DNA from: Oscillospiraceae bacterium
GTDB taxonomy: Bacteria > Bacillota > Clostridia > Oscillospirales > Acutalibacteraceae
Direction of reading: 5' to 3'
DNA: 64,000 bases
Assembly (NCBI GenBank): GCA_902762875.1
Contig: CACWPS010000003.1
Coordinates: 1 to 64,000 of the forward strand
Both the position numbers and the translations under genes were made by a program. The notes beneath the pieces are model-generated. The model searched no databases. It saw nothing but the letters and a program-made list of their open reading frames with translations, and was not told the DNA's origin. Below are positions 50,684 to 53,878 of the stretch, piece after piece; position 1 is the first letter of the stretch, and every line of letters begins with the position of its first letter.

Positions 50684-51194
50684 GGCTCCCTTGTGTAAAG
50701 GGTAACTCCTCGCAGTGCGAGGAGATGTCACGGAGTGACAGAGGTGACCGCCGCCGTCAGCGGCTGTCAGCCGTCAGGCTGACTGAGGGATTGTTTGCAG
50801 ATATTATCAATGTACTCACACACACCACGAAAATTGCGGGTAACTTCGTTGTTTGGTATGCGTAGAATCTTTAATCCATAGCCTTCAAGAAAAGTGTCAC
50901 GCTCAATATCTTTTTCTTTGTTTTCATCCTCATAGTGTTGAGAACCATCTAACTCAATCACAAGTTTTGCTTGAGCGCTGTAAAAATCAGCAATGTATTT
51001 TCCCAATACTTTCTGGCGGGAAAACCGAACCGGATAGGTACGGAGGAAATCGTACCATAGATGCCGTTCCTCCTTAGTCATTTCTTTTCGTAGCTGTTTT
51101 GCAAAAGGAACTAACTGCTTATTATGCTTTGACTGCATTGCAATCCCTCCGTCACGGCCTATGCCGTGCCACCTCCCTTTACACAAGGGAGGCT
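50684..51194. mobile_element. DUF559 inverted-repeat element A
   Basis: The left arm (about 50684-50793) and the right arm (51142-51194) share, inverted, an outer GCTCCCTTGTGTAAAGGG hairpin and an inner GAGGGATTG end. The left arm carries extra hairpins (CTCCTCGC/GCGAGGAG, GTCAC/GTGAC, CCGTCAGCGGCTG). Between them is one DUF559 ORF. The unit lies between the htrA terminator and the cytidine deaminase stop codon. Confidence 0.7.
50767..51138 (-). CDS. DUF559 endonuclease-like protein A
   Basis: This 123-residue protein is a DUF559 (Vsr/PD-(D/E)XK-like) domain. It has MTKEERHLWYDFLR, a conserved RFSRQKVLGKYIADF with Asp, the acidic strand LVIELDGSQHY, then LKILRIPNNEV and GVCEYID. DUF559 resembles very-short-patch repair nucleases. 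The ATG at 51138 is preceded by GGAGGG six bases away, and this site belongs to the right repeat arm. The last residues (SLSQPDG) are encoded by the left arm. An upstream extension through the arm is unlikely to be translated. Confidence 0.85.
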   Translation of the reverse strand: MQSKHNKQLVPFAKQLRKEMTKEERHLWYDFLRTYPVRFSRQKVLGKYIADFYSAQAKLVIELDGSQHYEDENKEKDIERDTFLEGYGLKILRIPNNEVTRNFRGVCEYIDNICKQSLSQPDG

Positions 51195-51209
51195 TTGTTG
51201 CTTTTAGAT

Positions 51210-51620
51210 TTAACATTCTACAGGCTGCCATGCAAACGGCAACAAATCTCTTGCTTTAACCTTAATTAAGCTACCGTTTTCGTCATTTACAATCACCTTG
51301 ATATCGGGACAATATTCAAAAAGCATCTGTCGGCAATTACCGCAAGGCGGAATCACACAATTAATATGTTTCTCGTGAACGGCAACGATTGTATCAAATT
51401 CACGCTCACCGTTTGAAATTGCGGTGCCAATGGTAATGTATTCCGCACAGGAGCCGTGAATACCGTCACAGTTTACACCTGTGTATATATTTCCGTTCTT
51501 GCACAAAACGGTACAGCCGACAGTATGATTGTATATACCGTCGTCAAAATTCTTTTCTAAAACTTCTAATCCTAAAGCTATGAGCTCTTTATCTTTTTCG
51601 GTTATTGAATATAGCTCCAT
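51210..51620 (-). CDS. cdd: Cytidine deaminase-like protein
   Basis: This 136-residue protein has the zinc motif GSCAEYITIG (Cys-Ala-Glu with the catalytic Glu) and PPCGNCRQ with two Cys ligands. That fits tetrameric cytidine deaminases or the related blasticidin-S deaminases. It deaminates cytidine or deoxycytidine to uridine. Element A is inserted about 15 bases downstream of its stop codon. A DUF4364 gene lies just upstream in the same direction. Confidence 0.88.
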   Translation of the reverse strand: MELYSITEKDKELIALGLEVLEKNFDDGIYNHTVGCTVLCKNGNIYTGVNCDGIHGSCAEYITIGTAISNGEREFDTIVAVHEKHINCVIPPCGNCRQMLFEYCPDIKVIVNDENGSLIKVKARDLLPFAWQPVEC

Positions 51621-51630
51621 ATTAACCTCA

Positions 51631-52182
51631 TTATCGCTTTGTCAGTATTTCAATGATTTGCGAATAAATGGTGTTGTCGTTCAAAAAGCGCTCTTTGATA
51701 TAATTTGCCTGTTCCTCGTCCGAGACCAAAAGCTTTACGCTCATAAAGGGCTGTCCGCCGTCCATAGCCGAGCAGGTGATAAACATTTTTCCGTTTTCTT
51801 TTGTGATTTTTATATCGCTTTCCTTGGCGTTTCTGAAATGTGCGACCATTTTAACTGCGGCGTTATACGCTCTGTCCTTTACCGAGTAGGCAAGAGAGGT
51901 TTTAAGGGTTTCGGCAATACTTCTGCCGCTTTGGGTAATAATATATGTGTCGTCCTTACTGTCTACAAGCTCCAAATGCCCGCTTTTGCACAGCGAGTCA
52001 ATAGAGTCGTTCACTTCAAAGCAGTTAGCTATTCCCTCATAATGCAGGGTATTAGCGAGCATTCGCCCCGGTACGGGTGCGTTAATTGATGAAATGACAT
52101 AACAAATTAATATTTTTATTTCTGCTGTGCTGAACAAACCGCCTACCGGGGATACTCCGGCGGAAACTGCATCCCTTTCCAA
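51631..52182 (-). CDS. DUF4364 family protein
   Basis: This 183-residue protein has an N-terminal winged-helix-like region (FSTAEIKILICYVISSINAP; CKSGHLELVDSKDDTYIIT) and an alpha/beta C-terminal part (FITCSAMDGGQPFMSVKLLV). It is typical of DUF4364, a widespread Clostridia family thought to be DNA-binding but uncharacterised. It is 10 bases upstream of the deaminase. Confidence 0.8.
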   Translation of the reverse strand: MERDAVSAGVSPVGGLFSTAEIKILICYVISSINAPVPGRMLANTLHYEGIANCFEVNDSIDSLCKSGHLELVDSKDDTYIITQSGRSIAETLKTSLAYSVKDRAYNAAVKMVAHFRNAKESDIKITKENGKMFITCSAMDGGQPFMSVKLLVSDEEQANYIKERFLNDNTIYSQIIEILTKR

Positions 52183-52346
52183 AAGGCTTACTCCTTTACT
52201 GTTGATTTATTATATTATAACTTTAATTGGTGCTTTTTTCAAGTGTAAAAGAGTAAAAAACAACAATTCAATAAAAGTGGGCGAAAATGCTATTTTTTTC
52301 TTGACAATGGGACAAAGTGTTGATATAATAATAAAGCTGTTTATTT

Positions 52347-52422
52347 GATTCATTAGCTCAGTTGGCAGAGCACTTGACTTTTAATCAAGGTGTCCGGGGT
52401 TCGAATCCCCGATGGATCACCA
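52347..52422 (+). tRNA. tRNA-Lys (TTT)
   Basis: Complete cloverleaf, acceptor GATTCAT/ATGGATC, anticodon TTT in loop CTTTTAA, encoded CCA. Its 3' end and terminator are duplicated downstream. Confidence 0.95.
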
Positions 52423-52471
52423 ACAAAGCATCGGCTTTTGTCGGTGCTTTTTTATTTCATATCAAATCGGG
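52406..52471 (+). repeat. 66-bp direct repeat, copy 1 (tRNA-Lys 3' end plus terminator)
   Basis: It comprises the last 17 bases of tRNA-Lys, the hairpin GCATCGGC/GTCGGTGC with T6, and a short tail. It is identical to 52587-52652. Confidence 0.92.
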
Positions 52472-52586
52472 GATTCGAACCCTGAGAGGGTGAGTGGCGT
52501 TAAGAAAACAGTCCGGTGGACTGTTTTTAGTCACGAAGTCCGCAGCGGTCATACCGCAAGGACGAAATACGCCTACGGCGGATTTA
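52472..52586. other. 115-bp insert between tRNA-Lys repeats
   Basis: The insert begins with an inverted tRNA T-arm-like string (GGATTCGAACCC) and contains a hairpin CAGTCC-GGT-GGACTG followed by TTTTT. No coding region is visible. It may be the scar of an excised element or a repeat that moved together with tRNA 3' sequence. Confidence 0.6.
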
Positions 52587-52652
52587 TCCCCGATGGATCA
52601 CCAACAAAGCATCGGCTTTTGTCGGTGCTTTTTTATTTCATATCAAATCGGG
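52587..52652 (+). repeat. 66-bp direct repeat, copy 2
   Basis: A perfect copy of 52406-52471. It has the acceptor 3' strand and CCA of tRNA-Lys without the rest of a tRNA, as expected of an attachment-site duplication. It ends 19 bases before the PAP2 stop codon. Confidence 0.92.
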
Positions 52653-52670
52653 ATTTCGTAATGAATCTTT

Positions 52671-53201
52671 TTACGATTCAAACCGTTTATACAGTAAATC
52701 TACGGCTTTACAGGCAAAAAAGCCGATAAATACGCCGAGAATAATGCCCGCTAAGACATCGGTGGGATAGTGCACATAAAGGTAAAGCCTTGAAAAGGCG
52801 ATAATTACCGCAAGAATAAGGGCGGGAATGCCTATGCGTTTATCCCGTATCATCAGCACGGTCGCCGCCTCAAAGGAGGCGAGGGTGTGGCCCGACGGAA
52901 AAGAATAGTCCGAAAGGCGGGCAATCAGAATTTCAATACCCTCGTTTAAATCATAAGGCCGTATGCGCCCCACAAGATTTTTTAAAAGCAGATTTCCGAT
53001 AATAAGCCCGCCTATAAGGGCTAGCGCAACCGAAAAGCCCGTCTTGCGGGTTTTTTTGAATATTAAAAGCAGTACCGCCGCTATAATCCAGATAATACCG
53101 CCGTTTGCAAGACTTGTTATCACGGGCATTACCGCATCAAGAAACGGGCAGGCGAGATGCTCCCTTATAAAATCAAGTATTCTAAGCTCAAATTCGTTCA
53201 A
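52671..53201 (-). CDS. PAP2-family membrane phosphatase
   Basis: This 176-residue protein has about five membrane helices. The PAP2 triple motif is present: KNLVGRIRP, FPSGHTLA and SRLYLYVHYPTDVLAG. It probably dephosphorylates a lipid phosphate such as undecaprenyl pyrophosphate or phosphatidic acid at the outer face of the membrane. Confidence 0.92.
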   Translation of the reverse strand: MNEFELRILDFIREHLACPFLDAVMPVITSLANGGIIWIIAAVLLLIFKKTRKTGFSVALALIGGLIIGNLLLKNLVGRIRPYDLNEGIEILIARLSDYSFPSGHTLASFEAATVLMIRDKRIGIPALILAVIIAFSRLYLYVHYPTDVLAGIILGVFIGFFACKAVDLLYKRFES

Positions 53202-53244
53202 GTTTTTCAGCTCCTTTTAATTTACTATATATTTGTGATACAAA

Positions 53245-53643
53245 TCAGTCGGCTCCCTCTGACGAGGGAGCTGTCAGCGAAGCTGACTGAGGGAGAGATT
53301 TTTTAACCGCTAAATCTATGTATTCGCATACACCGGAGAAATTACGGTCAATATCCAAATTACAAATTCTTAAAACCGTTAGATTCATATTTTCCAAATC
53401 TTTTGTACGAATTTTGTCTTTTTCCGCTTGCTCTGAGGTATAGTGTCCGCCGCCGTCAAGTTCAATAACGAGCCTTGCTTTTGCACAATAGAAATCCGTT
53501 ATATAATTTCCAATAGCTTTCTGCCTTTGGAATCGTATAGGGTAATTTCTTAAAAACTCATACCAAAGTTTTCGCTCCCACGGTGTCATATTATTTCTCA
53601 AGATTTTAGCAAGAGGGATATTGGCTTTATTGTATTCCTTCAT
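53245..53643 (-). CDS. DUF559 endonuclease-like protein B
   Basis: This 132-residue DUF559 protein is related to protein A but clearly diverged: MTPWERKLWYEFLRNYPIRF, RQKAIGNYITDF, LVIELDGGGHYTSEQ, GVCEYID. The ATG at 53643 has GGAGGG 7 bases upstream, supplied by the right repeat arm. The C-terminal 15 or so residues (SLPQSASLTAPSSEGAD) are encoded by the left arm. The Asp, ExD and His positions expected for a PD-(D/E)XK-like nuclease are retained. Confidence 0.85.
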   Translation of the reverse strand: MKEYNKANIPLAKILRNNMTPWERKLWYEFLRNYPIRFQRQKAIGNYITDFYCAKARLVIELDGGGHYTSEQAEKDKIRTKDLENMNLTVLRICNLDIDRNFSGVCEYIDLAVKKSLPQSASLTAPSSEGAD

Positions 53644-53702
53644 TTTCTCTCCCTCCGTCAAAACTTCGTTTTGCCACCTCCCTCGTCAGAGGGAGGCTTG
53701 AT
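53249..53702. mobile_element. DUF559 inverted-repeat element B
   Basis: Left arm (53252-53296) GGCTCCCTCTGACGAGGGAG to GAGGGAGAG; right arm (53646-53698) is its inverted counterpart, with inner hairpins CTGTCAGC/GCTGACTG on the left and CAAAACG/CGTTTTG on the right. The DUF559 ORF B fills the interior. The outermost AATCA is also shared by both ends in inverted orientation. Confidence 0.72.
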
Positions 53703-53878
53703 TCGGTTAATTCTAATATACCATTTATCGCCATTATTTTCAAGTTATATTCCTGCCGTGTCTTGAACTGAACATTTTTTGTGAGTCTGCACACAAAATA
53801 AGATGTGGACTTTATTAAAATATCAGATATAATTTAATTAGAAGCTTCTAATAAAACCTGATTAAAGGAGCACCGAAT
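53703..53878. other. Spacer before the XRE-TPR gene
   Basis: AT-rich. TATAAT at 53828-53833 may be the -10 of the XRE-TPR gene, with no clear -35. AAAGGAG at 53864-53870 is the ribosome-binding site for it. Confidence 0.4.

Follow-up and report, generated by a model that had tools for sequence, protein, structure and literature searches.

DUF559 genes flanked by paired, REP-like hairpin arms in a clostridial genome and in other bacterial phyla: a candidate selfish unit built around a Vsr-type nuclease

Here we describe two genes of the DUF559 family, each framed by inverted, hairpin-forming repeats (hereafter arms) of the repetitive extragenic palindromic (REP) kind, in a window of 64,000 nt (positions 1 to 64,000 of contig CACWPS010000003.1, forward strand, GenBank assembly GCA_902762875.1) from an Oscillospiraceae bacterium of the Acutalibacteraceae. 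The source genome comprises 1.69 Mb in 22 contigs, and the assembly is 97.6% complete. Both genes are encoded on the minus strand and have diverged from each other. Copy 1 (coding sequence 50767..51138, 123 amino acids) belongs to an element at 50684-51194, and copy 2 (53245..53643, 132 amino acids) to an element of 448 bp at 53251-53698, the two elements being ~2.06 kb apart. Each gene was identified as an open reading frame matching Pfam PF04480, with scores (copy 1, E 1.4e-29, 102.5 bits; copy 2, E 6.5e-26, 90.8 bits) above the gathering cut-off of 20.6 bits that place both in DUF559. The only other DUF559 gene matched in the genome, on contig C11, shows the same arm design, such that all three are armed. 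Because this third gene repeats the layout, and because arm motifs exceed their reversed-pattern controls (see below), the layout is more than chance; the inverted two-hairpin arms that the initial annotation had described around both reading frames, ~2.1 kb apart, are thereby confirmed as real.

Read from the outside inwards, each arm comprises an outer hairpin with one C-rich and one G-rich strand, an inner hairpin, and a GAGGG-type tag adjacent to the gene, the two arms of an element being inverted relative to each other. On the gene-3' side these correspond to a GGCTCCC..GGGAGC hairpin, an inner hairpin and a CTGAGGG tag, and on the gene-5' side to a GCCTCCC..GGGAGG hairpin, an inner hairpin with a G.A mismatch and a CGGAGGG tag. 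The gene-3' arm of copy 1 (50684..50794, plus strand; DNA fold z -6.07) consists of an outer hairpin CTCCCTT..AAGGG, an inner hairpin and the tag CTGAGGGATTG, with a 59-nt hairpin cassette (50703..50761, plus strand) nested between both hairpins, and overlaps inverted repeats I2 and I8; its gene-5' arm (51141..51194, minus strand; z -5.12) consists of the GCCTCCCTTGTGTAAAGGGAGG hairpin, an inner hairpin with the G.A mismatch, and a GGAGGG ribosome site at 51145-51150. In copy 2, the gene-3' arm (53251..53298, plus strand; z -4.34) forms the left end of the element, with a GGCTCCCTCTGACGAGGGAGC hairpin, a GTCAGC hairpin and the tag TGAGGGAGAG, and the gene-5' arm (53644..53698, minus strand; z -4.57) carries GGAGGG at 53651-53656, with the start codon 7 nt on, and ends on the right in GGGAGGCT. 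For each of the four arms, folding as single-stranded DNA outperforms all 200 dinucleotide shuffles of its sequence (z from -4.3 to -6.1). In both copies the GGAGGG precedes the ATG by 6-7 nt, in agreement with the earlier proposal that the right-hand arm supplies the ribosome site. The accompanying proposal, that the left-hand arm encodes the stop codon, holds for copy 1 (50767-50769, within the arm) but not for copy 2, whose reading frame crosses the entire gene-3' arm and stops just beyond it in flanking DNA (53245-53247).

Association between DUF559 genes and arms is not local to Clostridia, the scope first assumed, and a like design recurs in several phyla. To score it, we searched within 200 nt of the domain for GC-rich hairpins with a pyrimidine-only 5' strand, a stem of at least 6, a loop of 2-12 and at least 4 C. 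Within the family, such a hairpin accompanies 55 of 60 DUF559 loci, so that genes of this clade are, as anticipated, mostly flanked by arms, against 4 of 53 in windows 600 nt out (the loci represent 63 of the 76 DUF559 places in the family, with both windows full at 56; the outer windows are mostly coding, with hairpins rarer there, and the purine-first and other-gene controls weigh more). Among named loci, which are the best 80 of at least 544 confirmed DUF559 matches in genome contigs and derive mostly from Proteobacteria, the corresponding counts were 64/79 and 3/73, with hairpins on both sides in 37. Plasmid loci, read in 10 of 36 records, gave 7/10 against 1/10 at 600 nt out. Hairpins of reversed, purine-first polarity but equal composition were found on 7 sides in each of the family and named sets. 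Vsr genes of the same class had an arm-kind hairpin in 0/20 cases within 500 nt (24 fetched, of which four cut by contig ends were excluded), and Y1 transposase genes in 1/20, that one being an ordinary terminator. In its general form the arm consists of a C-strand, a loop, a G-strand, a short linker or second hairpin, and then the G-strand motif again, as exemplified in many beta- and gammaproteobacteria by CCCCTCTCCC..GGGAGAGGGG-ttg-GGGAGAGGGG. In Sphingomonas parapaucimobilis (L098), a DUF559 gene with an upstream arm separates two subunit genes within the pnt transhydrogenase operon. Also, two unverified gut phage contigs (L321/MT835749 and L322/MT835756) carry DUF559 genes with such arms nearby, as judged by eye, making phage carriage a possible route of DUF559 spread; a scan of viral contigs gave no match.

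A DNA search of 61 genomes of the genus recovered copy 2-like elements in other species, located at different places in sister species. At 13 of the 15 other-species loci read, the copy 2 element was matched end to end (GGCTCCC...GGGAGGC), with identities of 79.5-88.2%. The arms are the best-conserved part of the unit: across seven elements, mean identity reaches 97.6% in the 3' arm and 100% in the outer hairpin of the 5' arm, compared with 92.9% at codon positions 1+2 and 70.5% at the third. Since the arms are conserved above coding positions, beyond what neutral neighbours would show, a function of the arms can be argued. The genes themselves display a dN/dS (nonsynonymous to synonymous substitution rate ratio) of ~0.1 (median 0.097, taken from those 53 of 153 pairs whose dS is < 1.2).

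Arms also occur in numbers away from any gene. With up to one mismatch, GCYGACTGAGGG occurs 29 times in the genome versus 3 times for a reversed-pattern control, and a second arm motif 54 times versus 0. From 27 of the 29 GCYGACTGAGGG places (the other two being the window copies) and 20 further stretches, we obtained 30 candidate short elements, which after removal of one spurious and three overlapping cases yielded 26 distinct gene-less elements with a median length of 127 bp. In each, a GCTG-type arm is combined, in inverted order, with an arm of GGTG or GGGGACC type (13 C+G, 12 C+GG and one with a nested insert; the 12 of GGGGGACC type were classed by eye), the same pairing of unlike arms as around the nuclease genes. 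A REPIN (REP doublet forming hairpins) is defined as an inverted pair of REPs that are separated by a short spacer and present in many copies, and the short elements fit this description; with respect to miniature inverted-repeat transposable elements, target duplication was not noticed by eye, and some C-type elements lie within other terminal repeats. Loop and tag together distinguish four arm types, A (CTCTGACGAG), B (TTGTGTAAA), C (CTTGTCAG) and D (TTGCCTAAA). The tag is GAGGG-like with no general GTAG, which was seen by eye only inside C-type elements. Across clostridial loci, three sets of inner hairpins comprising 45, 55 and 10 variants keep 82, 85 and 98% of outer cells paired, versus 28-33% when shuffled; self-correction of palindromes could be an alternative cause of this pairing despite letter change. 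A 59-nt hairpin cassette recurs by eye at one spot in the 5' arms of C-type elements of the same genome (L043, L047, L053 and L056), and is missing from the otherwise similar elements L045, L049, L057 and L059. A cassette resembling that of copy 1 occupies the same position in the C-type element L058 (by eye).

DUF559 is present in 30 of 61 genus and 42 of 120 family genomes, and across the family its presence is related to arm number. Among 119 family genomes, our own excluded, the arm pattern CTCCCN6-11GGGAGSTG has a median count of 11 in genomes with a strong DUF559 match (E < 1e-10; n=32) versus 1 in those without (n=87; p 5e-9), and 21 of the 32 hold at least five arms above the reversed control. 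With two arms per DUF559 match removed, the family medians are 5 versus 1 (p 1.2e-5); these p values ignore genome kinship, and the pattern catches some arm kinds, with genomes carrying other arms scoring low. Arm number showed no link to Y1 presence among the family genomes (p 0.28).

The arms also differ in concert with the proteins they accompany. In a phylogeny of 74 DUF559 proteins from Clostridia, 55 of which could be assigned to one of five arm types, arm type changes five times, where the minimum is four and shuffled assignments average 29.2 (0/200 as low); support is strong for 9 of the 71 inner branches. Each type covers 2-9 genera and seven genera contain more than one type. Arm type follows the DUF559 clade and not the host, and many genera carry the gene together with a pair of arms of the matching type, at different sites. 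Cross-locus pairs were rejected as a control for arm similarity because loci share arm types.

Regarding the protein, an AlphaFold2 model of copy 2 based on 23 alignment rows (predicted local distance difference test, pLDDT, 89.5; predicted template modelling score, pTM, 0.79) is closest among solved folds to NGO0050 (3hrl, itself a DUF559 protein) and then to the catalytic domain of I-Bth0305I (3r3p), the nearest fold outside the family (Foldseek E 1.2e-4; hmmsearch E 0.0017), with Vsr (1cw0) lower in the Foldseek list (rank 15, E 0.086). Residues E29, D56, E67 and D69 are invariant in the alignment and H73 is nearly so. Both the fold and this acidic active-site pattern are those of the EDxHD/Vsr group, and DUF559 accordingly models as an EDxHD/Vsr-type nuclease, in line with a DUF559 gene having already been placed in the EDxHD family (in an excerpt of PMC9403480) and with YcjD having been linked with Vsr (in a passage of PMC1189080). 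Pfam matched the window proteins to DUF559 and MTES_1575 only; they lack Y1 and other transposase domains, and with no Y1/HUH tyrosine transposase domain DUF559 falls outside the RAYTs (REP-associated tyrosine transposases). Relatives sharing the EDxHD/Vsr fold, such as TnsA, Vsr and homing enzymes, cut DNA and leave joining to other proteins. These properties bear on whether DUF559 could be a true transposase that excises and rejoins arm-bounded DNA, a literal substitute for RAYT. Constant element ends, their resemblance to the hairpin ends handled by IS200/IS605 enzymes and the existence of short gene-less pairs are what such an enzyme would produce, but the predicted hydrolytic fold, the missing transposase domain and the cut-only habit of its relatives render this reading improbable. 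Of the initial annotation's view, that of a REPIN-type family in which DUF559 takes the place of the tyrosine transposase, the REPIN-like pairing stands, whereas a literal replacement is not established.

Some of the arm-bearing elements vary among relatives. Two short elements beside a conserved gene are absent, by arm pattern, in all seven closest relatives read (91-81% identity; one of the contigs extends 108 nt beyond the gene and then ends, and junctions are not fixed). Comparison of Sinorhizobium meliloti strains Rm41 and Ak57 shows one REPIN to have either gained or lost exactly 133 bp at its second hairpin tip; Sinorhizobium K101 carries a comparable short palindrome and S. medicae ml29 none. 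A 50-51-bp difference between near-direct repeats at a second S. meliloti locus looks like slippage.

From these observations, we consider that a DUF559 gene and its two arms probably constitute one selfish unit, a REP/REPIN-like system operating with a small EDxHD (Vsr-type) nuclease, although our confidence in this is only modestly better than even. Action of the nuclease on the arms is inferred. The enzyme would recognise its own arm type folded as hairpins, in single-stranded or cruciform DNA, and nick or cut there, and the break would be filled through host repair or replication, or by template switching, from another arm-bearing copy. Strand-joining would not be performed by the nuclease. 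As with a homing endonuclease, arm pairs could in this way spread in trans and complete units in cis, while the 5' arm would double as leader and ribosome site of the gene. Such a repair-dependent, homing-like route appears likelier than literal transposition because enzymes of this class hydrolyse DNA and no joining activity is known for them, and it would explain the pairing of unlike arms, nested arm insertions, junctions at hairpin tips, and arm conservation above that of coding positions. More tentatively, at slightly short of an even chance, DUF559 may be the dedicated partner of a large, unnamed REP class spread by cutting and host repair with no transposase. It is about as tentative that this class, typified by C-strand, loop, G-strand, linker or second hairpin, and repeated G-tag, would span Bacillota, Pseudomonadota, Deinococcota, Cyanobacteriota and others.

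The observations in this and the following paragraph weigh against a selfish unit of gene plus arms. Comparisons of sister species, rhizobia and E. coli revealed no cleanly empty DUF559 site, such that the expected insertion/absence polymorphism holds for the two short elements and the rhizobial REPIN but not for the gene, and cleavage, excision and insertion were not observed. The hairpin test detects no arm at 16 of the best 80 named loci (some in Neisseria and Legionella) and at 5 of the 60 family loci. Furthermore, seven of the 15 genus loci share a longer, ~770-bp unit that extends past the 5' arm into a promoter-like stretch, and further loci among the 15 share part of this promoter side; flanks beyond the longer unit differ, save for the orthologous pair L122/L123, and, judging from these alignments, the autonomous or moving unit may be larger than arms plus gene. 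The longer unit, at L108, L109 and L120-L124, combines an outer repeat ATGCTTGTTGTTA with a conserved promoter-like region. In the window, 53707..53750 (minus strand; TTGAAAA..TATATT, a resemblance seen by eye), just outside the 5' arm of copy 2, may be a remnant of the same stretch, as suggested by an alignment of six genus elements. In addition, the DUF559 genes of Azospirillum and E. coli look vertically inherited. Their stable placement would suit a purely cis-regulatory or structural role of the arms, as attenuator, ribosome-site switch or terminator, with DUF559 a resident repair nuclease like Caulobacter VsrA, whose cellular role is described in a portion of PMC12907096; the ribosome site does lie in the 5' arm, where the C-rich strand has two G-rich strands with which it could pair. 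We nonetheless regard this role as improbable, given that arms are multi-copy away from the gene as matched pairs, flank the gene on both sides instead of forming a leader alone, and accompany copy 2-like elements to different places in sister species.

The second group of counter-observations concerns arms that are not tied to a nuclease. D-type short elements, by eye the commonest among the matches listed of 144, have no D-type DUF559 gene in the assembly; C-type elements L038, L043, L045, L047, L049, L057 and L059 are enclosed by further inverted repeats (TGTCGAwAAA / TTTATCGACA), which may represent a different mobile element; and 8 of the 87 family genomes lacking a strong DUF559 match still hold at least five arms above control. 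Within the genus, the raw link between arm number and DUF559 (medians 3 versus 1, n=29 and 31, p 3e-4) is gone once the genes' own arms are removed (p 0.28), a correction which is harsh, in that the arms of some genus genes lie outside the pattern, and which still weighs against the model as tested; the early expectation that arm number tracks DUF559 is therefore borne out in the family and not in the genus. Together with three Y1_Tnp matches in the genome, one of them translated with an HLH motif, such unpartnered or enclosed arms allow that the arms are moved by a different enzyme, either a Y1 of RAYT/IS200 type or a DDE transposase, DUF559 being cargo or a parasite settled inside them. This is unlikely, if the most serious competitor, as arm number does not follow Y1, Y1 genes are armless but for the one terminator, and the match of arm type to clade and the like design in several phyla would demand repeated capture. 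Finally, physical linkage alone would yield congruence between arms and proteins. It is this congruence, along with palindromes nested inside palindromes here, that passive co-occurrence would offer in its favour, with palindromes and small selfish genes merely sharing tolerant intergenic spots; the missing hairpins at Vsr and Y1 genes, and arms more conserved than codon positions 1+2, unlike neutral neighbours, leave it very improbable.

Several candidate empty sites were examined and set aside. The Sinorhizobium K101/Ak57 difference is an internal deletion. In E. coli, 3363 of 5426 genomes contain a match spanning 80% or more of the sapF-ycjD-fabI stretch (L095, L134-L137), and in three other genomes read efflux genes follow sapF; ycjD was rejected as an empty-site case as efflux genes alternate with it, their presence in place of ycjD being noted in a section of PMC12817139. 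A search through the outer TTATGCTTGTG repeat gave one match in the 61 genomes (G166), with a solo-arm scar. Neighbourhoods of the window copies in sister species differ in gene order, and at the copy 1 place both the nuclease and a cytidine deaminase gene are missing in three relatives. Arm elements were not seen in a comparison of G151 (100 kb) with G142 (54 kb). Elsewhere in the window, at 52405-52658, a 73-bp stretch comprising a tRNA-Lys 3' end and terminator is repeated 181 bp downstream at 97% identity, and the DNA around it matches many genus genomes.

The system combines features of several that are already known. As in REPIN/RAYT systems, at least as portrayed in extracts of PMC6006769, paired inverted hairpin repeats occur in many copies and in several types per genome, and a small gene for a DNA enzyme is flanked by the same repeats. 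It differs in that the enzyme is of the EDxHD/Vsr and not the HUH/Y1 class, a general GTAG tag is lacking, and clostridial arms consist of two hairpins plus a repeated G-rich tag, with the arms of a pair unlike. With the EDxHD homing endonuclease I-Bth0305I it shares the fold and the notion of a selfish nuclease; unlike that enzyme, DUF559 comprises little more than a catalytic domain (123-132 amino acids here), its genes lie between repeats, and gene-less arm pairs are multi-copy. Vsr/VsrA mismatch nucleases belong to the same fold group, but Vsr genes of this class are without arms. Rhizobial DUF559 genes adjoin palindromes (L092 and L094), with the order of the arm reversed and the tag outermost, which resemble RIME1-type mosaic elements. 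REPs tagged with CGTC 'apparently lack a dedicated transposase', in the words of an excerpt from Di Nocera 2013 (PMC3733652). In many 5' arms from Clostridia the opposite strand has the sequence CGTC-A...T-GCCA, a partial fit with the plan of these REPs (CGTC tag, 8-9 bp stem with A-T first, 4-5 nt loop and CCA tail). DUF559 is not shown to be the partner of CGTC REPs, the classical CGTCAT core being unenriched near its genes (9 in 48,344 nt near versus 22 in 92,516 nt far). We found no link between DUF559 and REPs in the open-access literature, outside which most subscription journals lie, and none of the open-access papers mentioning DUF559 deals with repeats, judging by their titles.

Bacterial genomes widely contain short palindromes of the CCCTCTCCC..GGGAGAGGG kind, for which we know of no mover. 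A matching nuclease gene beside such palindromes in several phyla makes the question of what moves them testable, and provides a role for a domain whose name states only that its function is unknown. Were the nuclease to drive their spread, selfish amplification of small repeats would have arisen with at least two unrelated enzymes, an HUH transposase and a Vsr-type nuclease, and repair-dependent homing would extend beyond introns, inteins and phage genes. These findings point to an overlooked kind of selfish DNA.

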